This document shows positions 2,892-25,110 of a stretch of 34,973 nt of DNA, one piece after another (within the stretch, counting starts at the first letter, position 1; each line of letters begins with the position of its first letter). The translations under genes and the position numbers were made by a program. Origin of the DNA: an uncultured Massilimicrobiota sp. (GTDB lineage: Bacteria; Bacillota_I; Bacilli_A; Erysipelotrichales; Coprobacillaceae); NCBI GenBank assembly GCA_944325245.1, contig CALUZM010000018.1:1-34973 (forward strand). Direction: 5' to 3'. Below the pieces are notes generated by a model. That model was not told the DNA's origin, searched no databases, and saw only the letters and a program-made list of their open reading frames with translations.

Positions 2892-4505
2892 TTAAATTTC
2901 TGGCATTGCACATCCATCCGCTCGTGGATCACTTCCACCTAACCTCAAGCCATCTTTTCTTATTTCTATGATTTGAGACGCTCCAGAACAAGTATATGGT
3001 TCAATCACATTAAGGTCATGCCCCATAGCCTTTAATTGATTTAAAACTTCTTCACCTACCTGAGATTCAATTTTTAATTGATGAGTCACACTTCCATCTT
3101 CATGAATTGTGTGATTATCAGCCCATTTTGGTTCTTCCAATGCTGTTTGAACATCTAAACCAAAATCAATAATATTACATAATGTCTGCATATTCCATTG
3201 TGGCTGATTATCTCCACCTGGAGTATTTCCCACATAACATAATCTTCCTTGATTATCTGTGACCATATATGTATTTAATGTATGCATTGTCTTTTTACCT
3301 GGGGCTATCACATTTGGATGACCAGATGTTAAGTTAAATCCCGTTCCTGCTCTATTATTAAGCAAAATACCTGTTCCATCAACAATCTCTCCTGATCCCC
3401 AAGTTGCTGAAATGCTATGTATAAATGAAACAGCATTTCCATCCTTATCAACTGCAACCATACTTGTTGTATGAGAAAATTCATCAAACTCTAATTCTTC
3501 ATATTCATTGATGCAACGATCCATCTTAATTTTATTTGCCATCTTCTTTCCATATTCTGAAGTTAATATTTCAGAAACAGGGTTTGTGACATAATCAGGA
3601 TCTCCAAAATATTTCATTCTATCATGGAATGCAATTTTCTTTGCTTCTACCATCAAATGAATTGCTGATGCACGATCATTTTTATATTTTGACATATCAA
3701 ACTGATTCAAGATATTCATTTCTTCTAAATGGATTATTCCCTGAGAAACAGGTGGTAATTGAATAATCTGATAATCTCTATAAGGAACAGAAATCGGTTC
3801 AACATATTGACAATGATAATCTCTTAAATCTTCTAATTCAATTAATCCCCCATGTTTATGAGAATAGTTCACAATTTTTTGAGCAATTTCACCTTTATAA
3901 AAAGCATCCTTCCCTTCTTTACATAAACATTCTAAAGTTGTTGCATAATCTTTGTTGTAAAGCAGTTCTCCAATTTCATATGGATGACCATCTTTAAGAT
4001 ATATATTTGTCAAATTTTTGAATCTTTTCATTTTTTCATAATCTGTATGCATATGTCTAACTACTTTTTCAGATGCAGGTACACCATTTCGTGCCAATTC
4101 AATAGCGTCCTGACACACATTATTAAAAGTCATTGTTCCAAAATGATCTAAAGCTTCAAAATAAACATCACAAGCCCCTGGAATCGTCACCGATAGCATT
4201 CCATCTTTTGGAACATTTTTAAAACCATTTTCTTGAAAATATTGTAGGCTGGCTTTTTGTGGTGCACCTCCAGATCCATTTATTGCATATATCTTATTAG
4301 TTTTTGCTTCATAATATAATAAAAACGCATCTCCTCCTAAATTACACATATCGGGTAAAACAACATTACTTGTTAAGGCCATAGCAATAATGGCATCTAT
4401 AGCATTTCCACCATTATTCAAAACTTTTAAACCTGATGTTGATATAAGAGAATGGGCTGAAGCAACCATTCCCTTTCTTGACATAACAATTCCTCTATGT
4501 TTCAT
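2892..4505 (-). CDS. Gamma-glutamyltransferase-like Ntn hydrolase, cytoplasmic
   Basis: A GGT-family protein, normally matured by autocleavage at a Thr that becomes the N-terminal nucleophile of the small subunit. From ATG 4505 (GAGG seven bases upstream) it is 537 residues, a normal family length. Visible features are NGGNAIDA near the N-terminus, NLGGDAF, the cleavage site HTTSMVAVD (nucleophile Thr346), the GSGEIVDGTGILLNN loop and NTPGGDNQPQWNMQ. There is no signal peptide, unlike secreted GGT, so it resembles cytoplasmic YwrD-like members. The usual TTH is TTS here. It starts 13 bp after the IIC stop, so the two are surely co-transcribed. GGT-fold enzymes also include acylases and oxamate amidohydrolase; here it may hydrolyse an amide in the imported sugar conjugate. 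That role is inference. Confidence 0.88.
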   Translation of the reverse strand: MKHRGIVMSRKGMVASAHSLISTSGLKVLNNGGNAIDAIIAMALTSNVVLPDMCNLGGDAFLLYYEAKTNKIYAINGSGGAPQKASLQYFQENGFKNVPKDGMLSVTIPGACDVYFEALDHFGTMTFNNVCQDAIELARNGVPASEKVVRHMHTDYEKMKRFKNLTNIYLKDGHPYEIGELLYNKDYATTLECLCKEGKDAFYKGEIAQKIVNYSHKHGGLIELEDLRDYHCQYVEPISVPYRDYQIIQLPPVSQGIIHLEEMNILNQFDMSKYKNDRASAIHLMVEAKKIAFHDRMKYFGDPDYVTNPVSEILTSEYGKKMANKIKMDRCINEYEELEFDEFSHTTSMVAVDKDGNAVSFIHSISATWGSGEIVDGTGILLNNRAGTGFNLTSGHPNVIAPGKKTMHTLNTYMVTDNQGRLCYVGNTPGGDNQPQWNMQTLCNIIDFGLDVQTALEEPKWADNHTIHEDGSVTHQLKIESQVGEEVLNQLKAMGHDLNVIEPYTCSGASQIIEIRKDGLRLGGSDPRADGCAMPEI

Positions 4506-4518
4506 ATGTATACCTCTA

Positions 4519-5757
4519 CTATTCAGAAAGTGAGTTTTCACCATTCAAACGTTCACGTTCAATAATTTTGAAGAATGGATAATAAATCACACCTGCTAAA
4601 ATCAAACCACAAATAGACCATATCATGGCTGGAATATTACCACCAGTTGATAGATATGCACCAATAACAGGAGGCATAATCCATGGAACCTGAACAACTG
4701 GTCTACCAATAATATTAAAGAACATCAAGAAATATGTACCCGTTACTAAAACAGCATCAACCAATACAAATGGTATCATAATAATTGGATTCATTACGAT
4801 TGGTAAACCAAAAACAACCGGTTCGTTAATTTCAAAAAGACCTGCTGGTAAAGCCAAACGTCCTAAAGTTCTCAATGATTTTTCCTTTGATCTTGCCATA
4901 AGAACAACCAAAGGAAGTGTAGCTCCACATCCACCAAAGCTTACAAACCATGGAATGAAACCTAAAGCTGTAATATATGGAATAGGTTGTCCTGCAACAA
5001 AAGCCTCTGTATTAGCAACAATAAATGTTGTAAATATTGGCGTTCCTACAGCATTCAATACTGATTGACCATGAATACCAACACACCATAATAATTGAGA
5101 TACGACCATATAAACCAAAATACCAGGATAAGAATTTAAAGCAAATACAAGTGGTGAGAACAAAGAAATAATAAGTTCAGGAATATTAATTCCTAATACG
5201 CAGCGAAGAATAAATAAAATAGTTAATGATGCCATACTTGGAATTAATGCTGAGAATGATTGTGAAACAGCTGGTGGCACACCCTCAGGAAAGCGAATAA
5301 CCCAATTATGTTCAGTAAAAAGCTGTAAAACTTTTACACAGAATATAGCAACAACTAACCCTGTGAAAATTCCTTTTGATCCAAAATAATCTGTTGTCAA
5401 AGCAAATTCTGAATCAACTTGCAAAATCATAAATCCAATAAATGATATAATTCCACCCATTAATGCATCTTGATTAAATTGTTTCGCTAAATTGTATCCT
5501 ACAGAAAAAGATACAAACAAAGCAATAATTCCAATCGTCATTGCATTAGGCACATTTAACATAGCTGAATAAGGTTCAATAATTTCTAGCCATGTATCAT
5601 TTGGAAACTGCGATATGATGATAAAAATACTACCAAAAATAGTAAATGGTACCGTAGCAATCATTCCATCACGGATACCCTTTAAATAGCGGTTCGTCGC
5701 TAATTTTGCAAATACTGGAGCAATTTTGTTTTCCATCAACTCCATAATCTTATTCAT
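4519..5757 (-). CDS. PTS EIIC, cellobiose/lichenan (Lac) family
   Basis: Membrane channel subunit of a sugar phosphotransferase system, importing a beta-disaccharide while it is phosphorylated. The 412-residue protein begins like LicC/CelB (MNKIMELMENKIAP, then RDGMIATVPFTIFGS), has about ten hydrophobic segments, a GIHGQSVLNAV loop and the conserved EINEPVVFGLPIVMNP motif with its substrate-binding Glu. ATG 5757 has AAAGGAGG at good spacing; an in-frame upstream TTG-type start overlaps that site. No IIA or IIB gene lies anywhere in the window, so this IIC must borrow them. It is the first gene of the leftward operon and its promoter carries the element shared with three other units. Chitobiose- or cellobiose-like disaccharides are the likely class of substrate. 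Confidence 0.92.
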   Translation of the reverse strand: MNKIMELMENKIAPVFAKLATNRYLKGIRDGMIATVPFTIFGSIFIIISQFPNDTWLEIIEPYSAMLNVPNAMTIGIIALFVSFSVGYNLAKQFNQDALMGGIISFIGFMILQVDSEFALTTDYFGSKGIFTGLVVAIFCVKVLQLFTEHNWVIRFPEGVPPAVSQSFSALIPSMASLTILFILRCVLGINIPELIISLFSPLVFALNSYPGILVYMVVSQLLWCVGIHGQSVLNAVGTPIFTTFIVANTEAFVAGQPIPYITALGFIPWFVSFGGCGATLPLVVLMARSKEKSLRTLGRLALPAGLFEINEPVVFGLPIVMNPIIMIPFVLVDAVLVTGTYFLMFFNIIGRPVVQVPWIMPPVIGAYLSTGGNIPAMIWSICGLILAGVIYYPFFKIIERERLNGENSLSE

Positions 5758-5792
5758 ACACTTTCCTCCTTTAAATATATTTTCTTGCAACA

Positions 5793-5833
5793 ATTATAAC
5801 ATCATAATGTATTTGTGTAAAGATTATAATGTT
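5793..5833 (-). promoter_or_regulatory. PTS operon promoter with GntR-type operator
   Basis: Minus-strand promoter TTTACA (5816-5821), 17 bp, TATAAT (5793-5798). The spacer holds ACATTATGATGT (5799-5810), a near-palindrome continuing into the -10 as ATGTTATAAT. A second half-site ATTATAATGTT lies at 5823-5833 over the -35. The same element recurs at 5915-5940 and 11235-11276, so the GntR encoded at 11353 is the likely ligand-responsive repressor. Confidence 0.75.
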
Positions 5834-5909
5834 TTATTTTTTCACTTTTTTTCAGATTTTTTTAATAAAAATTGAATTTTTATTTCAATGTAATAAAATT
5901 TTGTTATTC

Positions 5910-5940
5910 TTTACTTTTAAACATTATAATGTTATAATGT
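5910..5940 (+). promoter_or_regulatory. Promoter/operator of the amidohydrolase operon
   Basis: TTTACT (5910-5915), 17 bp, TATAAT (5933-5938). The spacer carries the perfect 14-bp palindrome AACATTATAATGTT (5920-5933), and the whole reads CATTATAATGTTATAATG, as at the chr/gntR promoter. Bound repressor would cover the spacer and the -10. The predicted start near 5945 leaves a leader of about 27 nt. Confidence 0.75.
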
Positions 5941-5971
5941 TTTTAGTCGATAAAAGAAAGGAAAATCTTAT

Positions 5972-7093
5972 ATGTCAAAGTTATTAATAAAAAATGCTCA
6001 TTTTATAGATGGTAATATTTTTGATATTTACATTGAAAATAATATCATAAAAACAATAGGAACAAACTTAAATATTTCATCACAAAGAATTCCTACAATC
6101 TATTTACATGACGATGAATATATCAGTTCTGGCTGGATTGACTCTCATACTCATTGTTTTGAAAAATTTGAAATCTATGCTGACAACTGTGAAGAAATTG
6201 GCTACAGATCTGGCGTGACAACCGTCATAGATGCCGGAACTGCAGGTGCTGACAATATTGAAGAATTCTATAATCAAACAAAAAATTGTATAACACATGT
6301 CTATTCTCTTCTTAATATTTCAAAAACAGGGATATATGCTCAAAATGAATTATCTGATATGAACCATATCGATATAAAAGCTTTTCAAAATGCATATTTA
6401 CAGTATCCGAATTTTATTATAGGGGTCAAAGCAAGACTTAGTAAAAGTGTCATTGGCAGCAATGGTGATTTACCACTTTATAAAGCTATAGAAATAGCAA
6501 ATCTGACGGATCTCCCTCTCATGGTTCATATTGGAACAGCTCCTTTAGAGTTATCTAAGATATGCCAATACTTACGTCCAAAAGATATTATTACGCATAT
6601 TTATAATCCAAAAGAAAATGGTATTTGGGATGGGCAACACATTAAGCCGTGCGTATTGGAAGCTTATCAAAAAGGAATATATTTTGATTTGGGTCACGGA
6701 ACGGATAGTTTCTCATTCGACATCTTAAATTATGCTAATCAAAATCATCTGAAAGTCTATAGTATTAGCAGCGATATTTATCATCGTAATCGTAAGAATG
6801 GTCCTGTTTATGATCTAGCAACAACTATGACCAAACTTTATCATCATGGATACAGCCTAAAAGAAGTTATTGATTGCGTAACAATTCATCCTGCGAACAT
6901 GTTTCATTTACATCATATAGGAAAAATTGAAAAAGGATATCAGGCCGATTTCACAATATTTAAACTTACTAATAAAGCAAAAAAACTTATTGATTCAACC
7001 GGAAAATCAATAACCGTTTCATCTTATATTCAACCTACAGCAGTTATTATCAATAGCAAATATATTCAATTAAAGGAGAAGAACAATGGATAA
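5972..7093 (+). CDS. Amidohydrolase/deacetylase, EF_0837 family
   Basis: Metal-dependent amidohydrolase of the family found next to DgaE/DgaF homologues in Enterococcus and Aeromonas; the natural substrate is not established to my knowledge. Of 373 residues, the visible metal site is complete: HTH (His59, His61), a probable carbamylated Lys153 in GVKARLS, His186 in LMVHIG, His209 in ITHIYNP, and Asp268 in SISSDIY. A C-terminal composite beta-domain (GKIEKGYQADFTIF) is normal for the superfamily. AAAGGA precedes ATG 5972. It is the first gene of a four-gene operon and its end overlaps the next start by 8 bp. In this pathway the likely job is removal of an N-acyl group (for example acetyl) from an amino-sugar acid; lactam or lactone hydrolysis are alternatives. 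Confidence 0.9.
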   Translation: MSKLLIKNAHFIDGNIFDIYIENNIIKTIGTNLNISSQRIPTIYLHDDEYISSGWIDSHTHCFEKFEIYADNCEEIGYRSGVTTVIDAGTAGADNIEEFYNQTKNCITHVYSLLNISKTGIYAQNELSDMNHIDIKAFQNAYLQYPNFIIGVKARLSKSVIGSNGDLPLYKAIEIANLTDLPLMVHIGTAPLELSKICQYLRPKDIITHIYNPKENGIWDGQHIKPCVLEAYQKGIYFDLGHGTDSFSFDILNYANQNHLKVYSISSDIYHRNRKNGPVYDLATTMTKLYHHGYSLKEVIDCVTIHPANMFHLHHIGKIEKGYQADFTIFKLTNKAKKLIDSTGKSITVSSYIQPTAVIINSKYIQLKEKNNG

Positions 7094-8180
7094 CATTTAT
7101 GATAAATACCATATTAGTCACATAATAAACGCTTCTGGGAAAATGACAATTTTAGGCGGTTCGCGTCTTAGTGAAGAAGTCTGTGAATATATGAAATTTG
7201 GTGCAAACCATTTTTTTGAAATCAAAGATTTACTTAATAAAACAGGTGATTATCTAGCTCAATTAATCGGAGTTGAATCCGCATATATTGTAAACAGCGC
7301 CTCAGGCGCTATTGCCCAAAGTGTAGCAAGCTGTATATCCAAAGGAAATATACAAGATATACTTCATCCATATAATTTTGAAAATAAAAAAAGAGAAATT
7401 GTTATTTGTAAAGGTCATAATGTCGATTATGGAACACCTATAGAATTAACAATTAGTCTAGGTGGAGGAAAAATTATAGAAGCAGGTTATGCGAATCGTT
7501 GCACATTAGAACATGTACAATCTTGCATTAATGAAAATACCGCTGCACTCATTTATGTCAAATCCCATCATTGCGTGCAAAAAGAAATGCCTGACATTCA
7601 AAGTTTTATTCAGTTAGCCCATCAAAATCAGTTGCCAGTTATTATAGATGCAGCAGCAGAAGAAGATTTATTGAAATATTATAAAATGGATGGTGATATT
7701 ATCATTTATAGTGGAACAAAAGCTTTAGAAGGTCCTACCTCTGGATTAATCATTGGAAAAAAAGCTTTTGTAGAACAAATAAAAAAACAAAGTCTTGGAA
7801 TTGGAAGAGTTATGAAAATTGGCAAAGAAAATATTTTAGGACTTGTCCATGCAATCGAATGCTATTTACAACACCAACATTCAACTTTAGAGCAACAAAT
7901 TCAACGTTTAGAACCATTCAATAAAAAAATCAATCAAATCAACGGGCTCTCAGCACGATGTGTACAAGATGAAGCTGGTCGTTTGATTATCAGAAGTGAA
8001 ATTACTTTTTTAAATGGAAATGCTTTAGAAATTGTTCAAAAACTAAAAGAAGGAAAAACCAAAATATATACTCGTGATTACCATGCCAATGAAGGAAAAA
8101 TAGAAATTGATATTAGAGATGTTACTGATCATGAATTAGACATAATTTATGAAAAAATAGCAACAATAATGAAAGGATAA
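7086..8180 (+). CDS. dgaE: DgaE-type PLP enzyme (SelA-related ammonia-lyase)
   Basis: PLP-dependent enzyme of the SelA-like family whose characterised member, Salmonella DgaE, converts D-glucosaminate-6-phosphate to 2-keto-3-deoxygluconate-6-phosphate plus ammonia. The 364 residues include a VNSASGAI phosphate/substrate loop (70-77), Asp188 in IIDAAAEEDL for the PLP ring nitrogen, and the Schiff-base Lys212 in YSGTKALEGPTSG. AAGGAG lies just before ATG 7086, inside the end of the upstream gene, so translation is coupled. The next gene encodes the partner aldolase, as in Salmonella. A true selenocysteine synthase would be longer and sit with selB, so that reading is rejected. The exact amino-sugar acid and its phosphorylation state are inferred. 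Confidence 0.88.
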   Translation: MDNIYDKYHISHIINASGKMTILGGSRLSEEVCEYMKFGANHFFEIKDLLNKTGDYLAQLIGVESAYIVNSASGAIAQSVASCISKGNIQDILHPYNFENKKREIVICKGHNVDYGTPIELTISLGGGKIIEAGYANRCTLEHVQSCINENTAALIYVKSHHCVQKEMPDIQSFIQLAHQNQLPVIIDAAAEEDLLKYYKMDGDIIIYSGTKALEGPTSGLIIGKKAFVEQIKKQSLGIGRVMKIGKENILGLVHAIECYLQHQHSTLEQQIQRLEPFNKKINQINGLSARCVQDEAGRLIIRSEITFLNGNALEIVQKLKEGKTKIYTRDYHANEGKIEIDIRDVTDHELDIIYEKIATIMKG

Positions 8181-8185
8181 TGATT

Positions 8186-8920
8186 ATGAAAAAAACACCC
8201 AATTATTTAAATAATAAAATTTGTATCAATGTTTTGGCTAATTCTTTAGAAAATGCCAAAGAAATTTATAAAATGACAAATGGTCATGTTTTAATAGGAT
8301 TACTCTCTAAAAATTATCAAAATGTTGATGATGCAGTAACTGATATGAAAAAATATGCAGTCGAAACTAACAATTCCATTTCTGTTGGTTTAGGTGCAGG
8401 AGATCCTAATCAATGGGAAATGGTGGCAGAAATTGCCAAAAAAGTTCAGCCACAACATGTAAATCAAGTTTTTACAGGTATTGGTTATACTCGTGCCTTA
8501 TTAGGACAGAATGAAACGATTATTAACGGATTGATTTCACCAAGTGGAATAGTAGGCATGGTTAAAATTTCAACAGGACCTTTAAGTTCAAAAAATGTAC
8601 CAGCAATTATACCTGTTGAAACTGCCATTGATATGTTAAAAGATATGGGATGTGACTCCATCAAATTTTTCCCTATGAAAGGACTCTCTACAAAAGAAGA
8701 ATATACAGCAGTATGTCATGCATGTGCTAAAATGGACTTTATGATTGAGCCAACAGGTGGCATTGATTTGGAGAATTTTGAAGAAATCTGTAAGATAGCA
8801 TTAGAGGCGGGAGTCAAAAAAATCATCCCTCATGTTTATACATCTATTATCGATAAAGAAACAGGTTGTACAAAAATTGAAGACATTCAAAAATTATATG
8901 AAATGATGAAGAGGTTATAG
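8186..8920 (+). CDS. dgaF: DgaF-type 2-dehydro-3-deoxy-6-phosphogluconate aldolase
   Basis: Member of the KDGP aldolase family (DgaF), which splits 2-keto-3-deoxygluconate-6-phosphate into pyruvate and glyceraldehyde-3-phosphate. At 244 residues it has the family length and opens MKKTPNYLNNKICINVLAN. Visible motifs are SVGLGAGDPNQW, VKISTGPLS, a probable Schiff-base Lys160 in SIKFFPMKG, and MIEPTGGIDLENF. I chose ATG 8186 over ATG 8180 because AAAGGA is only three to four bases from the first ATG and nine from the second. It follows dgaE without a gap and precedes the kinase by 2 bp, so it is mid-operon. Confidence in the family is high; the sugar stereochemistry is unproven. Confidence 0.88.
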   Translation: MKKTPNYLNNKICINVLANSLENAKEIYKMTNGHVLIGLLSKNYQNVDDAVTDMKKYAVETNNSISVGLGAGDPNQWEMVAEIAKKVQPQHVNQVFTGIGYTRALLGQNETIINGLISPSGIVGMVKISTGPLSSKNVPAIIPVETAIDMLKDMGCDSIKFFPMKGLSTKEEYTAVCHACAKMDFMIEPTGGIDLENFEEICKIALEAGVKKIIPHVYTSIIDKETGCTKIEDIQKLYEMMKRL

Positions 8921-8922
8921 AA

Positions 8923-9927
8923 ATGAAAATACTTGCTTTTGGAGAAGTGATGATGCGAATGATGCCATCCAACTATAAAACATTATCTCAAACAAATACT
9001 CTCGAATTTCTTTTTACCGGTACTGGAATCAATGTATTGTCAGGCCTTTATCAGATGGGACATCAAGTTTATATTGTTACCAAACTTCCTGATAATAATG
9101 TTGGTAAAGCCGCCAGTGCAGAGATCAGAAAATTAGGTATTCATGATTGCTATATTTGTTATGGCGGCAACCATATAGGGATATACTTTTTAGAACAAGG
9201 TATAGGAAATCGTGCTAGTCAGGTTACATATTTAAACAGAAAAGATAGTTCATTTTGTTTGAGCCAAATATCAGATTATGATTTTAGTTGTTTAGATGGC
9301 ATGGACGCTTTACATATATGTGGAATTTCATTAGCAGTCAACGAAAACTTAAGACAAATTACATATAAATTTATTGAAGAAGCAAAAAAACGTCATGTTA
9401 AAATTATATTTGATTGTAATTATCGTCCTAGTCTATGGGCTCATCAGTCTTTTTGTGCCAAAGAGATATATGAAAATGTTCTTAAACAGGCTGATATTGT
9501 TTTTGCTGGACTCAAAGACGCCACTTTATTATTAAATAAAAAAATAGATTCATCCCTTTCTCATATAGAACAAATAAAAGAAGCATGTCGTCAAATGAGT
9601 CACGATTATCAGATAGAAACTATATTCGGAACCATTCGTAATACTCAGAATCATATATCTACATTAAATGGATATATGTATAATAGCAATCAATTCTTGA
9701 TGAGTCCTTCCTACGAATTGACCATATATGATCGCATTGGAGCAGGAGATGGTTTTGCTGCTGGAGCAATTCATGGCTATTTTTCAAACATGGATCCTCA
9801 TCTTCTTATTCAATATGCCACTGTTAGTGGTTTATTAGCACATACAACTTATGGTGATAGTCCTATCATCGGAGAGGATACTATATTAGATTTCATAAAA
9901 AATGGATGCGTACTTCTCAAACGTTAA
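8923..9927 (+). CDS. PfkB-family sugar kinase, probable KDG kinase
   Basis: Ribokinase-fold kinase that probably phosphorylates 2-keto-3-deoxygluconate, or the amino-sugar acid itself, in this pathway. The 334-residue protein starts MKILAFGEVMMRM, has an N-terminal FTGTGINVLSGL substrate region typical of KDG kinases, and the second PfkB signature DRIGAGDGFAAG (270-281) with catalytic Asp276. It begins 2 bp after dgaF and is last before a terminator. A kinase is not needed if the PTS phosphorylates the sugar acid directly, as in Salmonella. Its presence suggests the acid arrives unphosphorylated, for instance as the reducing-end unit of a disaccharide cut by the GH4 enzyme. That step is inference. 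Confidence 0.87.
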   Translation: MKILAFGEVMMRMMPSNYKTLSQTNTLEFLFTGTGINVLSGLYQMGHQVYIVTKLPDNNVGKAASAEIRKLGIHDCYICYGGNHIGIYFLEQGIGNRASQVTYLNRKDSSFCLSQISDYDFSCLDGMDALHICGISLAVNENLRQITYKFIEEAKKRHVKIIFDCNYRPSLWAHQSFCAKEIYENVLKQADIVFAGLKDATLLLNKKIDSSLSHIEQIKEACRQMSHDYQIETIFGTIRNTQNHISTLNGYMYNSNQFLMSPSYELTIYDRIGAGDGFAAGAIHGYFSNMDPHLLIQYATVSGLLAHTTYGDSPIIGEDTILDFIKNGCVLLKR

Positions 9928-9983
9928 TGAATAAGATAATATAAAAATAAAAAATGCCGTGACTTCTTAAAAACAATCCAAAT

Positions 9984-10031
9984 AAAAAAGCACTTAATAA
10001 TTATATTGAATATAATTGTAAGTGTTTTTTT
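9984..10031 (+). terminator. Terminator of the amidohydrolase-kinase operon
   Basis: CACTTA...TAAGTG arms enclose an inner AATTATAT / ATATAATT pairing and are followed by a run of T. The left flank is an A-run, so it can also stop the leftward chr genes that end at 10106. Confidence 0.85.
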
Positions 10032-10105
10032 ATGAATCTTGGAAACAATATTTCTTTTAATTCAAGTATGAAAAACTTCAATATGAACTGAGAAATCTTT
10101 ATGTA

Positions 10106-10678
10106 TTAAACACCAAATTGGAAAACAATACCCACAACTGCACTAATTGCAATTAAAAGTATTGGATGCCAATGCGTCTTTTTTTCTACAACATAAATAA
10201 TAATTGCTAGAATAATTCCCTTTATAACAAATAAATCCAGCAATTGTCCAGTTTGTTGAAATGCATCAATATTAATTAAAGCAATTTTGACAACACTCAT
10301 TCCAGCTGCTGCTATCATTGCAATTGAAGCTGGTCTCAATCCTAAAAATACAGCTTCAACATATTTATTTTCTTTAAACTTATTTAAAATTCTTGCTATG
10401 ATTAAAATGATAATAATAGAAGGAGCGACCAAACCAACAGTAGCAGAAATCCCACCTAATATTCCACTTACATTATATCCCGCATAACTTGCCATATTGA
10501 CACCAATAGCTCCAGGTGTTGATTCTGCGATAGCAATCATATTTGCAACATCACCATGAGTAAACCAGCCCATTGTATCAGATAAATCATACAAAAATGG
10601 CAAAGTTGCCAAACCTCCTCCAATTGAGAACAATCCAACATAAAAGAAACGTATAAAAAGTTGAAATAATAATGCCAT
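10106..10678 (-). CDS. CHR (chromate transporter) family half-size protein B
   Basis: One of a pair of single-domain CHR-family membrane proteins. The 190 residues contain the diagnostic FSIGGGLATLPFLY segment near the N-terminus, IAIAESTPGAIGVNMASYAGYNVSG and about six hydrophobic stretches. Its ATG overlaps the stop of the upstream partner (TAATG) and a GAGGAGG lies just upstream, so the two are translated as a pair. In full-length ChrA both halves are fused; paired short CHR proteins are known in Bacillota. Some CHR proteins export chromate, but the true anion for short pairs is often unknown. Sharing an operator with sugar-catabolism operons makes a role in moving an organic or sulfated anion of that pathway worth considering. 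Confidence 0.9.
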   Translation of the reverse strand: MALLFQLFIRFFYVGLFSIGGGLATLPFLYDLSDTMGWFTHGDVANMIAIAESTPGAIGVNMASYAGYNVSGILGGISATVGLVAPSIIIILIIARILNKFKENKYVEAVFLGLRPASIAMIAAAGMSVVKIALINIDAFQQTGQLLDLFVIKGIILAIIIYVVEKKTHWHPILLIAISAVVGIVFQFGV

Positions 10679-11220
10679 TACTGATTCCCTCCTCTAGCCA
10701 TGAAATAAACAATACCAACAATAGCTGCAAGTATAACTAAAATAGCTGGTGATATTGATGTAAATAAAGATAACAAGAAAACAACTGTAAAAATAAATAA
10801 TGCCATTTTATTAACAATAGATTTTTTCCATAGACGTTCGACAGCATTCAAAATAAGAACACATACTGCCACTCTTATACCCGCAAATGCATTTTTAACT
10901 ATTTCTAATTCAGCAAAATTATTTAAACAGGCTGCAATAATCATTAATAAAATACATGGAACAAAAACAAATCCTAAAGTTGCAACAATTCCTCCAATAA
11001 CACCTTTCCTTTTATTGCCAATAAAAGTGGAAACATTTACAGCGATGATCCCTGGCGTACATTGCCCAATTGCAAAATAATCCATCAATTCTTCATCTGT
11101 TGCCCAACCTCTTTTCTCAACAAATTCTCTTTGTAAAACAGGTAACATAGCATATCCACCACCAAAAGTAACACTCCCTATTTTTGCAAAAGTCACAAAA
11201 AGATTCACTAATTCCTTCAT
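10678..11220 (-). CDS. CHR (chromate transporter) family half-size protein A
   Basis: First gene of the CHR pair, 180 residues. It carries the family motif FGGGYAMLPVLQREFVEKRGW at about residues 19-39, then IGQCTPGIIAVNVSTFIG and a glycine-rich GVIGGIVATLGFVFVP membrane segment, with five to six predicted membrane spans. GGAGGG precedes ATG 11220. It is transcribed leftward from the symmetric promoter at 11235-11276 with a leader of only about 20 nt. Its partner starts at the overlapping stop/start. The two proteins probably assemble as an antiparallel heterodimer, as proposed for short CHR pairs. Substrate unknown. Confidence 0.9.
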   Translation of the reverse strand: MKELVNLFVTFAKIGSVTFGGGYAMLPVLQREFVEKRGWATDEELMDYFAIGQCTPGIIAVNVSTFIGNKRKGVIGGIVATLGFVFVPCILLMIIAACLNNFAELEIVKNAFAGIRVAVCVLILNAVERLWKKSIVNKMALFIFTVVFLLSLFTSISPAILVILAAIVGIVYFMARGGNQ

Positions 11221-11234
11221 TTTTCAGCCCTCCA

Positions 11235-11276
11235 TTTACATAAATTCATTATAACATTATAATGAATTTATGTAAA
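11235..11276. promoter_or_regulatory. Perfectly symmetric bidirectional promoter/operator of chr and gntR
   Basis: A perfect 42-bp palindrome: left arm TTTACATAAATTCATTATAA (11235-11254), CA (11255-11256), then the exact reverse complement of the arm (11257-11276). It contains TTTACA-17-TATAAT rightward (11235-11240, 11258-11263, toward gntR) and the identical promoter leftward (11271-11276, 11248-11253, toward chr). The two -10 boxes lie inside each other's spacers, so polymerase can use only one direction at a time. The core CATTATAATGTTATAATG is shared with the promoters at 5793-5833 and 5910-5940. Confidence 0.85.
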
Positions 11277-11312
11277 TAAAATCACAATTCTTTACAATAT
11301 TTCTTTTTTTAT

Positions 11313-11326
11313 ATGTTATAATGTAA
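11313..11326 (+). promoter_or_regulatory. Second -10/half-operator before gntR
   Basis: ATGTTATAATGTAA contains a TATAAT (11317-11322) and repeats the ATGTTATAATG half of the shared operator. A TTTACA lies 20 bp upstream (11291-11296), longer than optimal. It may be a weaker proximal promoter or an autoregulatory site 30 bp before the start codon. Confidence 0.5.
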
Positions 11327-11352: not shown

Positions 11353-12054
11353 ATGCCAGAAAAAGTACCACTCTATTACTCTATAATGGAAGTTTTAAAA
11401 GATTCTATTATTAATGGAATCTATCCAGTAGGCACTTTCTTACCTACAGAAACAGAATTAGAAAAACAATTCAATGTTAGTAAAATCACAGTAAGAAAAG
11501 CTATTGAATTATTAGAAAATGATGGTTATGTTTCAAAAAAAAGTGGCAAAGGAACAACTGTAATCAGTAATAATATTTTTAATAAATTATCCAATGGTCA
11601 ATCATTTTCTTCCATCTTAAATCAACAGGGATATCAAGTTACAAAAGAGCACACACAATTTGAATATATGGATATAGATCCACAAAATGAGCTATTTCCA
11701 TATTTTTCAAGGAAATGCTTAAAAATCACAAGATGTTACTATTTAGATGGTCAACCTTATATTCATTTTACACACTATCTTCCTAGTTCTCTTCATATAC
11801 CTCAAATATCTACTCCTAATGATTTTTCATTATATACATATCTTTATCAAAGCAATATGTCTGTAAGCCAATTTGATGATGAATTTTATGTTGAATTTCC
11901 ACCACTTGATATTTTAAAATCATTAAATCTAGAAAATGGACCGGTATTAGGAAGAAAACGTATTACTTACGACACAAGTCATCATGTTATTGAAATTTCT
12001 TACGCAAGATATAATACACGTATTCATAACTATCAAATCAAATCCAAAGTTTAA
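11353..12054 (+). CDS. GntR/HutC-family regulator (UTRA domain)
   Basis: Transcription factor of 233 residues: winged helix at about 5-72 (LPTETELEKQFNVSKITVRK, then ENDGYVSKKSGKGT wing) and a C-terminal UTRA effector domain (about 90-230, with FEYMDID, CYYLDGQPYI and the closing EISYARYN strand). HutC-type members usually repress and are released by a sugar phosphate or pathway intermediate. AAAGGAGG precedes ATG 11353. It stands alone, read from the palindromic promoter it shares with the chr pair. Because the same operator lies at the PTS and amidohydrolase operons, it most likely controls all three plus itself; the effector may be a phosphorylated amino-sugar acid or 2-keto-3-deoxy acid phosphate (inference). 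Confidence 0.93.
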   Translation: MPEKVPLYYSIMEVLKDSIINGIYPVGTFLPTETELEKQFNVSKITVRKAIELLENDGYVSKKSGKGTTVISNNIFNKLSNGQSFSSILNQQGYQVTKEHTQFEYMDIDPQNELFPYFSRKCLKITRCYYLDGQPYIHFTHYLPSSLHIPQISTPNDFSLYTYLYQSNMSVSQFDDEFYVEFPPLDILKSLNLENGPVLGRKRITYDTSHHVIEISYARYNTRIHNYQIKSKV

Positions 12055-12515: not shown

Positions 12516-13193
12516 TTATTTTTTCTTGTTAGCATAATATGCACGAACAAGCGTCTGCGTTTTTCGAATATGTTTTTGGATTGTTTTCTTGGCTAATTCT
12601 TTATCTCCTGTCACAATTGAATCCAAAATAGCACGATGTTCCTGGATAGCAGTTTCCAAACGTTCTGGTTGTGTAATGGAATGACGACTTGTGACTGAAA
12701 CATAATAATGAACATCTTTTAATAATTGTTCAAAATATTGAGACTGCGTTGCCTGATAAATCGTTTCATGATACAAGATATTCAAATCATTAATCTTTTC
12801 CTGATCTTTTTTTGCAGTATAAAATTCCATCAGTTCAAAAACATCTTTAATTTTAGCTAAATGTTCTTCATCCATTCTATCTATAGCAAGTTGAATTGCC
12901 AAACCTTCTAAAGCACAACGGATTTCAAACATATCATCAATATCACGTGGTGAAAAACCTTTCACATAAACACCTTTATTAGGAATACTTTCAACAAGTC
13001 CTTCTAGTTCTAATTGCTTTAAAGCTTCACGAATAGGTGTACGACTGATTTTTAATTCATTGGCTAAAGCTAATTCATTTAGCTTTTGGCCATGTTCATA
13101 TTCTTCATTTAAAATACGATCTCTTAAAATATCAAAAATTTTATTTCCTAAAGAGCCGTGTGAAACATGTTCAAATAAACTATGTGACGGCAT
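12516..13193 (-). CDS. FadR/FCD-type GntR regulator of the TCA operon
   Basis: 225-residue regulator with an N-terminal winged helix (about 15-75; RDRILNEEYEHGQKLNE, LAISRTPIREAL-like recognition helix, ESIPNKGVYV wing) and a C-terminal all-helical FCD domain (about 85-215). FCD domains bind a metal and carboxylate ligands; candidate His ligands are visible in LYHETIYQAT, QEHRAIL and QKHIRK. AGGAGGG precedes ATG 13193. It is the third gene after aconitase and isocitrate dehydrogenase, 11 bp from the icd stop, so it probably senses citrate, isocitrate or a related acid and autoregulates through the TTGTATACAA element at the operon promoter. Ligand and sign of control are inferred. Confidence 0.92.
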   Translation of the reverse strand: MPSHSLFEHVSHGSLGNKIFDILRDRILNEEYEHGQKLNELALANELKISRTPIREALKQLELEGLVESIPNKGVYVKGFSPRDIDDMFEIRCALEGLAIQLAIDRMDEEHLAKIKDVFELMEFYTAKKDQEKINDLNILYHETIYQATQSQYFEQLLKDVHYYVSVTSRHSITQPERLETAIQEHRAILDSIVTGDKELAKKTIQKHIRKTQTLVRAYYANKKK

Positions 13194-13204
13194 ATTTTTC
13201 CCTC

Positions 13205-14197
13205 CTACAATTCATCAATAATCGCTTGAACAAATTCTGTTGTGGTTGCATGTCCACCAATATCAGGAGTGATAACTTCTTGTTTTGCAACAACCTTTGA
13301 TAAAGCTTCTCTTAAAGTTTGAGCAGATTGTTGTTTTCCCATATCTTCCAGCATCAGTGCAAAAGCGAGTAATAAAGCACTCGGATTAGCAATATTTTGA
13401 CCTGCGATATCTGGCGCACTACCATGAACAGCTTCATAAATACGATATTGATCTCCAATATTTCCACTTGGCGCAAATCCTAATCCTCCAACTAATCCAG
13501 CACATAAATCTGAAACAATATCACCATATAGATTAGGTGCCACCAAAACATCAAATGTTTCAGGTCTTAAGACAAGCTGCATACACATATTATCAACAAT
13601 AACTTCCTGTGCTTCAATCTCTGGATAACATTTAGCAACATCTCTAAAAGCTTCCAAGAAGAGACCATCTGTATATTTCATAATATTAGCTTTATGCACT
13701 GCTGTCACTTTATGACGATTATTGATTTTCGCATATTCAAAAGCATAACGACAGATTCTTTCACTGGCTTCTCGGGTAATCAATTTGACACCATTAGCGA
13801 TATCTTTATTGAGCATATATTCAATACCTTTATATAAATCTTCAGTATTTTCACGAATAATAACCAGATCAATATTTTCATACTTTGAATCAATTCCTTG
13901 AAAAGAACGAATAGGTCTGACATTGGCATAAGTTTCAAATTTCTGTCTTAATGCTACATTGACACTTCTAAAGCCAGTTCCAATCGGTGTTGCTGTAGGG
14001 CCTTTTAAAGCCCATTGATACTTTTCAATTGCTTCTACTAGACCTGGTTCAAAGACTTCACCTGTTTCTTTAGCATATTCAGCTCCAGCACGATATTTCT
14101 CCCATTCAATATCTAAATTCATTGCTTTTGTGATACTTTCAACACTTTGTGCAATTTCTGGTCCAATTCCATCACCAGGAATCAATACAGCTTTCAT
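13205..14197 (-). CDS. icd: Isocitrate dehydrogenase, NAD-dependent type
   Basis: Oxidatively decarboxylates isocitrate to 2-oxoglutarate. The 330-residue protein belongs to the short isocitrate/isopropylmalate dehydrogenase family: IPGDGIGPEI at the N-terminus, GFRSVNVALRQKFETYANVRP at 75-95 with Ser78, Arg84 and Arg94 as isocitrate ligands, Tyr122 in ENTEDLYKG, the HKANIMKYTDG Lys, and HGSAPDIAGQNIANP. Asp-Ile after HGSAP is the pattern of NAD+ enzymes, while NADP+ enzymes carry Lys-Tyr. GGAGGGG precedes ATG 14197, which overlaps the aconitase stop (TAATG). Isopropylmalate dehydrogenase or homoisocitrate dehydrogenase are less likely given the S-V-N-V motif and the aconitase neighbour. Together they supply 2-oxoglutarate for glutamate synthesis. 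Confidence 0.93.
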   Translation of the reverse strand: MKAVLIPGDGIGPEIAQSVESITKAMNLDIEWEKYRAGAEYAKETGEVFEPGLVEAIEKYQWALKGPTATPIGTGFRSVNVALRQKFETYANVRPIRSFQGIDSKYENIDLVIIRENTEDLYKGIEYMLNKDIANGVKLITREASERICRYAFEYAKINNRHKVTAVHKANIMKYTDGLFLEAFRDVAKCYPEIEAQEVIVDNMCMQLVLRPETFDVLVAPNLYGDIVSDLCAGLVGGLGFAPSGNIGDQYRIYEAVHGSAPDIAGQNIANPSALLLAFALMLEDMGKQQSAQTLREALSKVVAKQEVITPDIGGHATTTEFVQAIIDEL

Positions 14198-16116
14198 TAA
14201 AAATCCCCTCCTAAATCTTTAATAGCATTTAATAATCCACCATGCAAAATCATTACTTTTTCTCTTGGTGCAAGCTTTAATTCTGTTGATAAAGTGTCTT
14301 TTGTTCTTACATTTTGAACAATGATAGGTTCATCTTTTTCAACAGATTCTTTGACATTCAATAAAACATATTCATCTTCTTCATTAAAGAAATCATAACC
14401 TTTTTGATCAATCACAATTGGTAAAATACCATTATTAATCAAATTAGAACGATGAATTCTAGCAAATGATAAAGCAAAAATAGCTTTAATCTTTAAATAA
14501 TTTGGTACTAAAGCCGCATGTTCACGTGATGAGCCTTGACCATAGTTATCTCCACCAACAATGAAACCACCATGATTTTCTTTTGCTCTTGTGTAGAATT
14601 GATCATCAACTTTGGAAAAAGCAAATTTCGCAAGATGTGGAACATTAGAACGGAAAGGTAATAATTTTGAATCAGAAGGGACAATATGATCTGTAGAAAT
14701 ATTATCTCCCACTTTTAAAACAACTTTCCCCTGAATATTATCTGATAATTTTTCTCCTCGAGGCACTGGTTTAATATTCGGTCCCATATAAACCTGTGTA
14801 TTTGGATCATATTCATGAATAAAGAAATTTTCATTTTTAATAAATGGTGTAGAAGGTACTTCATCTAAATACATATCATCTTCAAATTGACAAGATAAAT
14901 ATCCTTGAATTGCTGACAAGGCCGCAATTTCTGGAGACACAAGATAAACACCTGCATCATTTGTTCCAGAACGTCCTTTAAAGTTACGATTGATTGTTCT
15001 TAAAGAAATACCTTTTGAAAGTGGTGCTTGCCCCATACCAATACATGGTCCACAGCCACATTCAAGAATTCTCGCTCCAGCATGAATCATATCAGCTAAA
15101 GCTCCATTTTGTGATAACATCGCTAAAATACTTGAAGATCCTGGCGCAATAACCAAAGACACATGATCGGCCACTTTTCTTCCTTTTAAGATTTTTGCAG
15201 CACGCATCATATCAGCAAATGATGAATTCGTACATGAACCAATCACAACCTGATTAATGTGCATACCTTCCAGCTCTTTAACAGCGACAACTGCATCTGG
15301 ACTATGAGGTTTGGCAACCAATGGTTCTAAAGTAGACAAATCAATATCCAATCTTTCATCATACTTTGCATCTGCATCAGCTTTCATTTCAATATAATCA
15401 GCTTCACGTCCCTGTTGTTTTAAATATTCCAAAGTTCTTTCATCTGTTGGGAAAATAGATGTTGTGGCACCTAATTCTGCCCCCATGTTACAAATTGTTG
15501 CACGATCTGTTAAAGACAAAGAAGCAATCCCATCACCAGTATATTCGACAATCTTATTGACTCCGCCTTTAACAGTTAAAGTCTGTAAAATCTTTAAAAT
15601 AATGTCTTTGGCACTCACCCAAGGTGCTTTTTTCCCTGTTAAATTCACTTGAATGACACTTGGACATTGTAAATAATATTTTCCAGTTGCCATAGCCACT
15701 GCAACATCCAATCCTCCAGCACCAATCGCAATCATTCCCATTGCGCCACAAGTTGGTGTATGTGAATCACTTCCTACCAATGTTTTCCCAGGTTTTGAAA
15801 AGTTTTCTAACTGTAATTGATGGCAAACACCATTCCCTGGTTTTGAAAAAGTAATACCATGTTTTTTAGCAACACTACGAATAAATTCATGATCATCCAT
15901 ATTTTCAAATCCTGTCTGTAACATGTTATGATCAATATAAGCAACAGCTTTTTCTACTGCGACTTTTCCTATATCCATGGCTTCTAACTGTAAATAAGCC
16001 ATTGTTCCTGTTGAATCCTGTGTTAATGTTTGGTCTATTCCAATGCAAATTGGTGTCCCAGGAATTAACTCTCCTTCTTTTAAATGCGCCTGTAAAACTT
16101 TATATGCTAAATTCAT
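14197..16116 (-). CDS. acnA: Aconitate hydratase, about 640-residue type
   Basis: Isomerises citrate to isocitrate through cis-aconitate using a [4Fe-4S] cluster. At 639 residues it is the compact aconitase type seen in many anaerobes. Cluster cysteines are Cys295 in VIGSCTNSSF and Cys355/Cys358 in CGCGPCIG; GSDSHTPTCGAMG lies at 115-127, and the C-terminal swivelling domain carries NISTDHIVPSD and NYGQGSSREHAALVP. AAGGAG lies nine bases before ATG 16116. It is first in the acn-icd-regulator operon. No citrate synthase is in the window, so that enzyme must be encoded elsewhere for the branch to work. Homoaconitase or 3-isopropylmalate dehydratase are normally split into two proteins, which argues against them. 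Confidence 0.94.
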   Translation of the reverse strand: MNLAYKVLQAHLKEGELIPGTPICIGIDQTLTQDSTGTMAYLQLEAMDIGKVAVEKAVAYIDHNMLQTGFENMDDHEFIRSVAKKHGITFSKPGNGVCHQLQLENFSKPGKTLVGSDSHTPTCGAMGMIAIGAGGLDVAVAMATGKYYLQCPSVIQVNLTGKKAPWVSAKDIILKILQTLTVKGGVNKIVEYTGDGIASLSLTDRATICNMGAELGATTSIFPTDERTLEYLKQQGREADYIEMKADADAKYDERLDIDLSTLEPLVAKPHSPDAVVAVKELEGMHINQVVIGSCTNSSFADMMRAAKILKGRKVADHVSLVIAPGSSSILAMLSQNGALADMIHAGARILECGCGPCIGMGQAPLSKGISLRTINRNFKGRSGTNDAGVYLVSPEIAALSAIQGYLSCQFEDDMYLDEVPSTPFIKNENFFIHEYDPNTQVYMGPNIKPVPRGEKLSDNIQGKVVLKVGDNISTDHIVPSDSKLLPFRSNVPHLAKFAFSKVDDQFYTRAKENHGGFIVGGDNYGQGSSREHAALVPNYLKIKAIFALSFARIHRSNLINNGILPIVIDQKGYDFFNEEDEYVLLNVKESVEKDEPIIVQNVRTKDTLSTELKLAPREKVMILHGGLLNAIKDLGGDF

Positions 16117-23031: not shown

Positions 23032-25110
23032 TTATATTCCAAACAATAAATCCATATATGTTGGCATTGGCCAATATTTTTCATCAACATGATTTTCAAT
23101 TTCATCAACAACACGACGTAATTCATTCATTGTTGTTAAAACATCATCACGCCATATTTTAGCAATTTCTAAAATATCTCCTGTTTTCTTTTGAGCTCTT
23201 TCAACATGACTTTCTAAAATAGTCATCTGATTTTTCATTTGTGATAACATATCAGATAATAATTGAATATCATCAATCAAATAATCATTATGAATAGCTA
23301 ATTCTTTTGTACGCAATGCTGTTTGAGATAACTGATTTAAATAAGATAATGCAGCTGGATATATTTCATTACGAGCCATTTTTAAAGCAGTTAAAGCTTC
23401 AACCTGAATTGTCTTATTATAGTTTTCAAGAAGAATTTCATAACGTGATTCAAGTTCAATCTCACTATAAACACCTAAACGCTTAAACATTTGAATGATT
23501 TTTTCATCTTTTAGACATTCCATAGCTTCCACAGTGTTTTTACGATTTGGAAGTCCACGTCTTTTTGCTTCTTCTTCCCACTTTGCAGAATAACCATCAC
23601 CATTAAAGATAATTCTTTGATGTTCTGATAAGAATTCTTTAATGACTTCCATTGGTTCTTTTCCTTTTTCAATTTCATCTGCCATTTCTTCCATTTCTGT
23701 AGCCAAAATAGAATTTAAGATCGTATTTGGTCCAGCAATAGATTGAGATGATCCAACAGCTCTAAATTCAAATTTATTTCCAGTAAAAGCAAAAGGTGAT
23801 GTACGATTACGATCTGTATTATCTTTAGAGAAATCAGGTACAACAGAAACACCGGTCTGGAATCTTCCATTTTCTACGTCTTCCAGCTCTTTACCTTCAA
23901 TAATAGCGTGAATAATTTTATCTAAATCTTCACCAAGGAATATTGAAATAATAGCTGGAGGTGCCTCATTCGCTCCTAAACGATGATCATTACCTGCTGT
24001 TGCTGTGGACATACGCAATAAATCTGCATATTCATCCACTGCCTTTACAGTACATGCAAGAGCAGCTAAGAATGGTAAATTTTCGCTAGGATTTTTCCCT
24101 GGATTAAATAAGTTTACACCTGTATTTGTTACAACTGACCAGTTATTATGTTTTCCTGAACCATTCACACCATCAAATGGTTTTTCATGTAATAAACATC
24201 TTAAACCATGTTTTTTCGCAATATCCTGCATCAATAACATTAATAGATGATTATTGTCTGTTGTAATATTGACATTACGGTAGACACAAGCCACTTCATG
24301 TTGAGCTGGTGCCACTTCATTATGCTTTGTTTTAGAAGGAATTCCATATTTCCATAATTCGTGATCAAGTTCTTTCATAAAAGCTGCCACTTTACGTTTT
24401 AAACTTCCAAAGTAATGATCTTCCAATTCCTGTCCTTTTGGAGCCATTGCACCAAAAAGTGTTCTTCCTGTTAATTTTAAATCCATACGCTTTTGATAAT
24501 ATTCATCAGCAACCAAAAAATATTCCTGTTCACTTCCTACAGAAGCATCAACATGTGTCACACCTTCCATACCAAGCATTGGTAATAAACGACAAGAAGC
24601 TTTTGTTAAGGCATCCACAGATTTTAATAATGGTGTCTTTTTATCTAAGGCTTCACCTGTATATGAACAAAACAGTGTTGGAATATACAAGCTACCATCT
24701 TTCACAAATGCTGGTGACGTACAATCCCACGCAGTATAACCACGTGCTTCAAATGTTGCACGTAATCCTCCTGAAGGGAAAGAAGAAGCATCAGGTTCTC
24801 CTTTTCTTAATGTTTTTCCACTAAACTCTAACACAGCTTTATTTCCATCAGGTTCTAAAAAGGCATCATGCTTTTCTGCAGTTAATCCAGTCATTGGTGT
24901 AAACCAATGTGTAAAATGTGTTGCTCCATTTTCAACAGCCCATATTTTCATTGCATTGGCAATAACAGTCGCCGTTTCTTTTGCTAATGGTTCTCCTTTA
25001 TCTAAAGCTTCATGAAAAGCTTTATAAGTTGATTTTGGAATACGTTCTCTCATGACTTCATCACTAAATGTTAAACATCCATAGTCTTCAAGCAACTTAT
25101 TCATATCCAT
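23032..25110 (-). CDS. glnN: Glutamine synthetase type III
   Basis: ATP-dependent ligation of ammonia to glutamate by the large GSIII class. The 692 residues fit the class (about 700) and are far longer than the roughly 450-residue GSI. Landmarks are FTHWFTPMTGLTAEKHDAF near 65-83, the FPSGGLRATFEARGYTAWD region, a glutamate-rich GSEQEYFLV metal site, KHNEVAPAQHE, GVNGSGKHNNWS and NRTSPFAFTGNKFEFRAVGSS. ATG 25110 has GGGGG ten bases upstream. It has its own promoter and sits divergent from an atypical response regulator that could control it. With acn and icd nearby, the window supplies both 2-oxoglutarate and ammonia assimilation steps, though they are not one operon. Confidence 0.97.
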   Translation of the reverse strand: MDMNKLLEDYGCLTFSDEVMRERIPKSTYKAFHEALDKGEPLAKETATVIANAMKIWAVENGATHFTHWFTPMTGLTAEKHDAFLEPDGNKAVLEFSGKTLRKGEPDASSFPSGGLRATFEARGYTAWDCTSPAFVKDGSLYIPTLFCSYTGEALDKKTPLLKSVDALTKASCRLLPMLGMEGVTHVDASVGSEQEYFLVADEYYQKRMDLKLTGRTLFGAMAPKGQELEDHYFGSLKRKVAAFMKELDHELWKYGIPSKTKHNEVAPAQHEVACVYRNVNITTDNNHLLMLLMQDIAKKHGLRCLLHEKPFDGVNGSGKHNNWSVVTNTGVNLFNPGKNPSENLPFLAALACTVKAVDEYADLLRMSTATAGNDHRLGANEAPPAIISIFLGEDLDKIIHAIIEGKELEDVENGRFQTGVSVVPDFSKDNTDRNRTSPFAFTGNKFEFRAVGSSQSIAGPNTILNSILATEMEEMADEIEKGKEPMEVIKEFLSEHQRIIFNGDGYSAKWEEEAKRRGLPNRKNTVEAMECLKDEKIIQMFKRLGVYSEIELESRYEILLENYNKTIQVEALTALKMARNEIYPAALSYLNQLSQTALRTKELAIHNDYLIDDIQLLSDMLSQMKNQMTILESHVERAQKKTGDILEIAKIWRDDVLTTMNELRRVVDEIENHVDEKYWPMPTYMDLLFGI

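Follow-up and report, generated by a model that had tools for sequence, protein, structure and literature searches.

The PTS, amidohydrolase and chr transcription units of the window (the whole 34,973-nucleotide stretch of DNA analysed) carry a common palindromic element in their promoters. We predict, with a probability of about 85%, that the adjacent HutC-type GntR regulator (11353-12054) uses this element as its operator, because retention and loss of the word go hand in hand with retention and loss of the protein in related gut bacteria. What we observed is where the sites lie, how specific they are within the genome, and how they are conserved along with the regulator and the target genes. 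The predicted three-unit GntR regulon is new, and a sugar-use control circuit of this kind is fairly ordinary. The locus contains the following features.

1386-2780, minus: GH4 glycosidase (regulon membership not supported)
2892-4544, minus: gamma-glutamyltransferase (GGT)-family enzyme
4519-5758, minus: PTS lactose/cellobiose-family IIC (ORF open to 5793; ATG at 5758 likelier)
5793-5821, minus: PTS-IIC promoter, TTTACA-17-TATAAT (-35 at 5816-5821, -10 at 5793-5798)
5793-5809, minus: exact CATTATRATGTTATAAT, PTS-IIC/GGT operon promoter
5798-5811, minus: predicted operator O2 of the PTS promoter, TACATTATGATGTT, between -35 and -10
5820-5833, minus: predicted operator O1 of the PTS promoter, AACATTATAATCTT, a second copy at the -35, 22 bp from O2
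5910-5938, plus: amidohydrolase operon promoter, TTTACT-17-TATAAT (-35 at 5910-5915, -10 at 5933-5938)
5920-5933, plus: predicted operator of the amidohydrolase operon, exact AACATTATAATGTT
5922-5938, plus: exact CATTATRATGTTATAAT, amidohydrolase/DgaE/DgaF/PfkB operon promoter
5972-7093, plus: EF_0837-family amidohydrolase
7086-8180, plus: DgaE-family PLP ammonia lyase
8180-8920, plus: DgaF-type KDGP aldolase
8923-9927, plus: PfkB-family kinase, resembling KDG kinases
10106-10678, minus: CHR-family transporter, second half of the pair
10678-11220, minus: CHR-family transporter, first half of the pair
11234-11277, no strand: 44-bp near-perfect palindrome (21-nt perfect arms, 2-nt centre) with two mirror-image promoters within
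11235-11263, plus: mirror-image promoter facing gntR, TTTACA-17-TATAAT (TTTACA 11235-11240, TATAAT 11258-11263)
11248-11276, minus: chr promoter, TTTACA-17-TATAAT (-35 at 11271-11276, -10 at 11248-11253)
11248-11264, minus: exact CATTATRATGTTATAAT, chr pair promoter
11253-11266, minus: predicted operator of chr, TTCATTATAATGTT, probably that of gntR too
11291-11322, plus: proximal gntR promoter candidate (TTTACA 11291-11296, TATAAT 11317-11322, 20-bp spacer, extended -10)
11353-12054, plus: HutC-type GntR regulator, GntR and UTRA domains
12516-13193: neighbouring FCD-type GntR

The shared element and its operator core

The original prediction gave four transcription units, gntR among them, one common promoter element. 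This stood for the PTS, amidohydrolase and chr units, where a TTTAC(A/T)-17-TATAAT promoter surrounds each of three exact copies of the 17-mer CATTATRATGTTATAAT. It did not stand for the proximal gntR promoter, with its 20-bp spacer and extended -10; this promoter lacks the operator core (7/14 mismatches in the operator register) and has only ATGTTATAAT, the extended -10, in common with the others. Genome-wide scans, run as pattern searches, retrieved three exact copies of CATTATRATGTTATAAT from the 2.47-Mb genome, every one inside the window. The element was therefore not found at many unrelated promoters, the outcome named beforehand as counting against the regulon. As a control, the pattern read backwards had 0 matches in the whole genome. 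At three mismatches or fewer, the window holds 8 occurrences against 1.74 expected, a number reached in 0 of 100 shuffles. Recent duplication of one promoter segment is unlikely, as the flanks beyond the -35, operator and -10 differ by eye.

Judging from sequence, a 14-bp palindrome, AACATTATAATGTT, forms the operator core. It replaced the 17-mer, in which the 3' part is the -10 box, as the operator unit, since relatives retain AACATTATAATGTT while the -10 part varies. O1, adjoining the PTS -35, had been overlooked, and its 22-bp spacing from O2 is the same in six relatives. The centre of AACATTATAATGTT is ATTATAAT. An 18-bp palindrome at one mismatch or fewer occurs at only two places in the genome, both in the window. 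The only other 1-mismatch cores in the genome (C8:14488 and C120:917) lie within ORFs, and the 2-mismatch palindromes elsewhere (C7:4070, C30:8411; loci L162, L163) had no core within one mismatch. The same operator thus stands before three units and is absent from the genome's other promoters; for gntR, this holds through the mirror-image promoter only.

In this AT-rich DNA, part of the core coincides with -10-like sequence; the similarity is inflated as a result, which counts against the operator-regulator assignment. The element might then be nothing more than a strong promoter with an extended -10 (TGnTATAAT) and an AT-rich spacer, read by no regulator. The genome is indeed AT-rich, TGTTATAAT is an extended -10, and this part is just what the proximal gntR promoter has in common with the rest. 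However, the three exact copies in 2.47 Mb fall at a single locus, and the conserved core is located 5' of the -10 and persists where the -10 differs (TATTCT, TACAAT, TATAGT, TATGAT). The core also co-occurs with GntR across genomes. On genome specificity, core persistence and co-occurrence, we rejected a promoter consensus alone as very improbable.

The chr site is the core of the 44-bp palindrome at 11234-11277. The mirror-image promoter facing gntR, whose spacer ends in CATTATAACAT, had been overlooked. Because the palindrome also holds this promoter, autoregulation of gntR through the chr/gntR operator is plausible.

Regulator family and co-conservation with the operator

The regulator has an N-terminal GntR winged helix-turn-helix (PF00392, 59.3 bits against a cut-off of 27, residues 8-70) and a C-terminal UTRA effector domain (PF07702, 56.9 bits against 23.8, residues 121-222). 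It falls below the equivalog cut-offs of TreR, HutC and PhnF (TIGR02404, 84.8 against 211.95; HutC, 57 against 220; PhnF, 58.1 against 156.8). The typical operator of the HutC subfamily is GTNTANAC, which is not part of the domain definition. This consensus was not matched in the 22 collected sites, all of which (22/22) have A, not G, at position -4 of the AACATTATAATGTT core, a discrepancy that speaks against the operator-regulator assignment.

Among 316 genomes of the order, 18 encode a GntR orthologue, as called by an E-value cut-off and not from a tree, and 298 do not. The scan of relatives came out in favour of the regulon: the exact core is present in 13/18 genomes with the orthologue and in 15/298 without it (Fisher, p = 6e-12), and the 18-bp palindrome at one mismatch or fewer in 12/18 and 11/298, respectively (p = 1e-11), p-values that overstate independence as the genomes are related. 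The exact cores whose context was read in orthologue genomes precede IIC, MupG, the amidohydrolase cassette or a ChbG-IIC-KdgT operon; some are not beside gntR and are sometimes far off (L150, L152-L155). In three further orthologue genomes (G007, G008, G182), the IIC promoter has variant cores that keep the 22-bp spacing, and G187 has a 1-mismatch core before the amidohydrolase cassette on another contig (L151). G192 is evidence to the contrary, as the orthologue is present and no core was found.

The operator-GntR link holds down to 39-44% GntR identity. The exact core is present in G571, of another family of the class, while Paenibacillus albidus has 18-bp palindromes at one and two mismatches and Roseburia sp. 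one at two mismatches. A further point against the assignment comes from three genomes of one genus (G199-G201), with three exact cores each and GntRs only 28-34% identical; either these GntRs have the same specificity or the word is recognised by another protein.

A different regulator could read the operator, for example the adjacent FCD-type GntR, which is also a neighbour and is kept beside the locus in relatives. Nevertheless, the sites track the HutC-type protein instead, and the HutC-type gene is the last of the amidohydrolase operon in both P. albidus and Roseburia sp. A congener, G003, serves as a negative control. Its gntR is a 29-residue remnant and no operator sites were found in its genome, yet the FCD-type GntR is retained at 98% identity, which led us to reject this protein as the binder and leaves such a reading scarcely credible. 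The claim that a single HutC-type GntR controls the operons through the element has strong comparative support, apart from the proximal gntR promoter without a core, and this regulator is probably the reader of the operator.

Predicted mechanism, pathway and significance

A GntR dimer would bind the 14-bp palindrome AACATTATAATGTT between -35 and -10 and so keep RNA polymerase from three promoters, those of PTS-IIC/GGT, amidohydrolase-DgaE-DgaF-PfkB and chr. O1 of the PTS promoter lies upstream of O2 by exactly 22 bp, or about two helical turns, and probably makes repression stronger. The chr/gntR operator, within the 44-bp palindrome of two interlocked divergent promoters, may also autoregulate gntR. 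A phosphorylated sugar-acid intermediate in the UTRA domain would release the repressor. GntR could instead bind as an activator or mixed regulator, as O1 touches the -35 of the PTS promoter. This is improbable, given that -35 and -10 flank the cores, so that a bound protein would exclude RNA polymerase, and that characterised relatives such as NagR repress (PMC4333415). Promoter-occluding repression, relieved by a sugar-acid metabolite, appears the most likely mode from the site arrangement.

In the pathway and substrate that we tentatively propose, an N-acylated glucosaminate-type unit would be deacylated and then undergo ammonia elimination, phosphorylation and aldol cleavage to pyruvate and glyceraldehyde-3-phosphate. 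The window DgaE passes the broader TIGR01437 model; at 358.2 against a cut-off of 600, it is below the NF047797 equivalog and is not assigned as a D-glucosaminate-6-phosphate ammonia lyase sensu stricto. A literature search on EF0837/cog3964 function gave nothing useful.

The gene set had been considered unusual. It is less odd than thought because it recurs in relatives as two modules, IIC-MupG-amidohydrolase-DgaE-DgaF-PfkB and IIC-GGT-chr-chr. Inclusion of GH4 in the regulon could not be demonstrated: its upstream gap has no operator, the best candidate having 5 mismatches. GH4 and AnmK are not supported as members, as their best cores (5 and 3 mismatches, respectively) are at chance level.

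The predicted operator AACATTATAATGTT ties the EF_0837 amidohydrolase, GGT beside PTS IIC, paired short CHR transporters and MupG relatives, proteins with previously obscure roles, into one regulon that spans gut Erysipelotrichales relatives and beyond. With this, the search for the substrate can be confined to amino-sugar acids, and there are grounds for considering roles of CHR-family proteins besides chromate efflux. More speculatively, and on balance doubtfully, the operator may mark a regulon not described before, devoted to the PTS-fed breakdown of a disaccharide that terminates in an N-acylated glucosaminate unit; oxidised chitobiose or an analogue derived from the cell wall would be examples. 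Glycosidases of the MupG or GH4 type would cleave the disaccharide, the EF_0837 amidohydrolase would deacylate, and DgaE, PfkB and DgaF would finish the pathway; GGT and the CHR transporters could act on an acylated form of the substrate. In G193 (L154), the presence of ChbG and KdgT under this operator is a hint in this direction.

Comparison with known systems

The Salmonella Dga pathway for D-glucosaminate has DgaE- and DgaF-family enzymes in common with the window but differs in its mannose-family PTS. A further difference is that the window DgaE is under the strict ammonia lyase cut-off (358 vs 600).

NagR/YvoA of Bacillus subtilis, a GntR/HutC protein, has the same architecture as the window GntR (GntR wHTH and UTRA) and is its best PDB match (E = 8e-14). 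Like the window, the NagR system is a local regulon for amino sugars and uses short palindromic operators, named dre. NagR prevents transcription, and its activity responds to sugar phosphates (PMC4333415). However, its target genes differ, and its operator has a GTGG-type half-site, whereas that predicted here is AACATTATAATGTT. In the PDB alignment, the guanine-contacting Arg38 and Arg48 of NagR align with Thr34 and Lys44 of the window protein, and the wing Gly69 with Gly65.

'System III' of Bacillus cereus (GntP, GntR, KDG kinase, amidohydrolase, aldolase and PLP enzyme), in the part of its description consulted, matches the window's catabolic core plus a GntR regulator; a D-glucosaminate-type substrate is suggested there and no operator is described (PMC4896439). 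Transport is by GntP in that system and by a lactose-family PTS IIC in the window.

The proposed logic of the window is also like that of the repressor-controlled Ong pathway for oxidised chitin (GlcNAc1A) in Pseudoalteromonas prydzensis, in which the substrate is deacetylated, deaminated to KDG, phosphorylated to KDG-6-P and cleaved by an aldolase (PMC9537276). The components differ: OngB is an amidohydrolase of the D-aminoacylase type (PMC12017989) and OngC a PLP enzyme of fold-type III, whereas the window has EF_0837 and a DgaE/SelA-type enzyme. The repressor OngR belongs to the MurR/RpiR family and transport is by SSS, in contrast to the HutC-type GntR and PTS of the window. If the doubtful disaccharide reading were true, the window would hold a counterpart of this marine pathway built from unrelated enzymes.

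Three promoters with one predicted operator

Comparison of the DNA of this contig with that of its relatives makes a sound case for a GntR regulon restricted to this locus, with three operons and a newly delineated predicted operator. The element CATTATRATGTTATAAT is present in three exact copies in the window (5793-5809, minus; 5922-5938, plus; 11248-11264, minus), each surrounded by a TTTACA/T-17-TATAAT promoter. As originally predicted, these belong to the PTS IIC/GGT operon, the amidohydrolase-DgaE-DgaF-PfkB operon and the chr pair. No other exact copy was found in the genome (2,472,622 bases, 127 contigs, one of which, C18, is the window in full), where the reversed element, searched as a control, had 0 matches. 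In a genome scan for the full 18-bp palindrome CATTATAAYRTTATAATG with mismatches, the places in the window scored best, followed by two elsewhere at 2 mismatches and by background at 3. Two 1-mismatch copies of its 14-bp core lie outside the locus, both within ORFs.

The promoter nearest gntR (HutC-type regulator gene, 11353-12054, plus) had been counted as a fourth carrier. However, it lacks the element, with 7/14 mismatches in the operator register, and shares with it the extended -10 ATGTTATAAT alone. The interval contains a palindrome that had gone unremarked, by far the longest of the window (next longest, 24), which forms a hairpin when single-stranded (z = -9) and encloses the minus-strand chr promoter.

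Features of the chr/gntR interval
11234-11277: 44-bp palindrome with perfect 21-nt arms
11235-11263, plus: mirror-image promoter TTTACA-17-TATAAT within the palindrome, facing gntR
11291-11296 and 11317-11322: TTTACA and TATAAT of the promoter nearest gntR, 20 bp between boxes

With the mirror-image promoter, gntR has two candidate promoters, this one interlocked with that of chr around one operator, and gntR is probably also autoregulated.

The gene for AnmK (anhydro-N-acetylmuramic acid kinase, 116-1264) adjoins the cluster; a 3-mismatch core upstream of it is at chance level. At 23032-25110 is encoded a 692-aa protein whose match to glutamine synthetase models is only weak and spans about 150 residues.

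Operator and regulator in relatives

Alignment of target-gene promoters identified the conserved unit as the 14-bp palindrome AACATTATAATGTT between the -35 and a variable -10. Its positions are mostly invariant in the 22 collected sites, some of which are not independent. PTS IIC promoters have another copy, AACATTATAATCTT, which extends into the -35. Its distance from the core is exactly 22 bp in the window and in six stretches of relatives' DNA (L057, L059, L060, L061, L062 and L086).

GntR orthologues (E <= 1e-35) were detected in 18/316 genomes of the order. Exact cores were present in 13/18 of these versus 15/298 others (Fisher p = 6e-12), and the 18-bp palindrome with up to 1 mismatch in 12/18 versus 11/298 (p = 1e-11), values that are optimistic because the genomes are related. 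Five of the 18 have no exact core. In three of them (G007, G008 and G182) the IIC promoter carries a variant core, and G218 retains just a partial, broken gntR; in G192, no core was found in the survey.

Genes behind exact cores in orthologue genomes
IIC-GGT: G280, G236
IIC, then MupG and/or the amidohydrolase cassette: G033, G027, G195, G198; G032 by position
MupG-amidohydrolase-DgaE-DgaF-PfkB: G193
Amidohydrolase cassette alone: G194
MupG, distant from gntR: G187, G188
IIC, distant from gntR: G189
ChbG-IIC-KdgT (ChbG-type deacetylase, lactose-family IIC, KdgT-like transporter; L154:7027-10144) and IIC-MupG-like, distant from gntR: G193

In G187, the amidohydrolase cassette, on another contig, is preceded by a 1-mismatch core. 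G571 (another family of the same class) has an exact core upstream of IIC-MupG-amidohydrolase-DgaE-DgaF-PfkB, palindromes at 1 and 2 mismatches precede the amidohydrolase of Paenibacillus albidus, and a 2-mismatch palindrome lies ahead of an ABC-transporter gene set in Roseburia sp. 1XD42-34. In these genomes the predicted operator-GntR link holds at 39-44% GntR identity. The genus of G199 and G200 (L156, L157, L164, L165) has three exact cores per genome but GntRs only 28-34% identical; two genes behind these cores are phosphosugar-isomerase-like.

The best control is a natural deletion in G003, of the same genus. Its gntR is reduced to a 29-residue remnant (L063:9783-9869, 90% identity), and the searches found no 18-bp palindrome (to 1 mismatch) and no exact core. 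The remnant lies between GH4 and the FCD-GntR/isocitrate dehydrogenase/aconitase block, as a deletion scar of the cluster. The neighbouring FCD-type GntR might instead bind the operator, but G003 retains it, with isocitrate dehydrogenase and aconitase (90-98% identity), in the absence of sites, which speaks against it as the binder. GH4 is likewise kept (97% identity) without an operator, so its proposed regulon membership is not borne out. Genome specificity, co-occurrence, target context and the G003 loss uphold predicted control by the HutC-type GntR. In the window, the FCD-type gene adjoins isocitrate dehydrogenase and aconitase (12516-16116), with 85-98% identity in four relatives.

Predicted mechanism and substrate

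In the mechanism that we infer, including GntR binding, sign of regulation and ligand, GntR dimers between -35 and -10 would most likely exclude RNA polymerase, the 22-bp-spaced pair would strengthen repression at the PTS promoter, and binding of a metabolite to the UTRA domain would release GntR. The nearest structurally studied protein, NagR, blocks transcription and has GlcN-6-P or GlcNAc-6-P as ligand (PMC4333415). Its Arg38 and Arg48, which read guanine, correspond in the alignment to Thr34 and Lys44 of the window GntR, and wing Gly69 to Gly65. The replaced arginines would fit an AT-rich operator, which is only suggestive, since the residue matching Arg38 is arginine in some orthologues, as is that matching Arg48 in the distant proteins of G199/G200.

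The amidohydrolase and aldolase match the EF_0837 and DgaF models; the PLP enzyme matches the broad DgaE model, not the strict D-glucosaminate-6-phosphate lyase model, and the PfkB-family kinase is KDG-kinase-like with a score below cut-off. Relatives include MupG-family glycosidases in the operon. In G007 and G008 (L061, L062), IIC-GGT-chr-chr appears to be a single operon, so that GGT and chr membership is not accidental and CHR-family transporters are tied to sugar uptake. A single lactose-type PTS IIA was found genome-wide, on a different contig from the window.

These enzyme models, the MupG, ChbG and KdgT genes of relatives and two known systems point to an N-acylated amino-sugar acid as substrate, probably imported as a PTS-phosphorylated disaccharide. 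A B. cereus cassette has the same core, with transport by a GntP permease and a glucosaminate derivative as proposed substrate (PMC4896439). The Ong pathway for oxidised chitin follows the steps proposed here with unrelated enzymes (PMC9537276).
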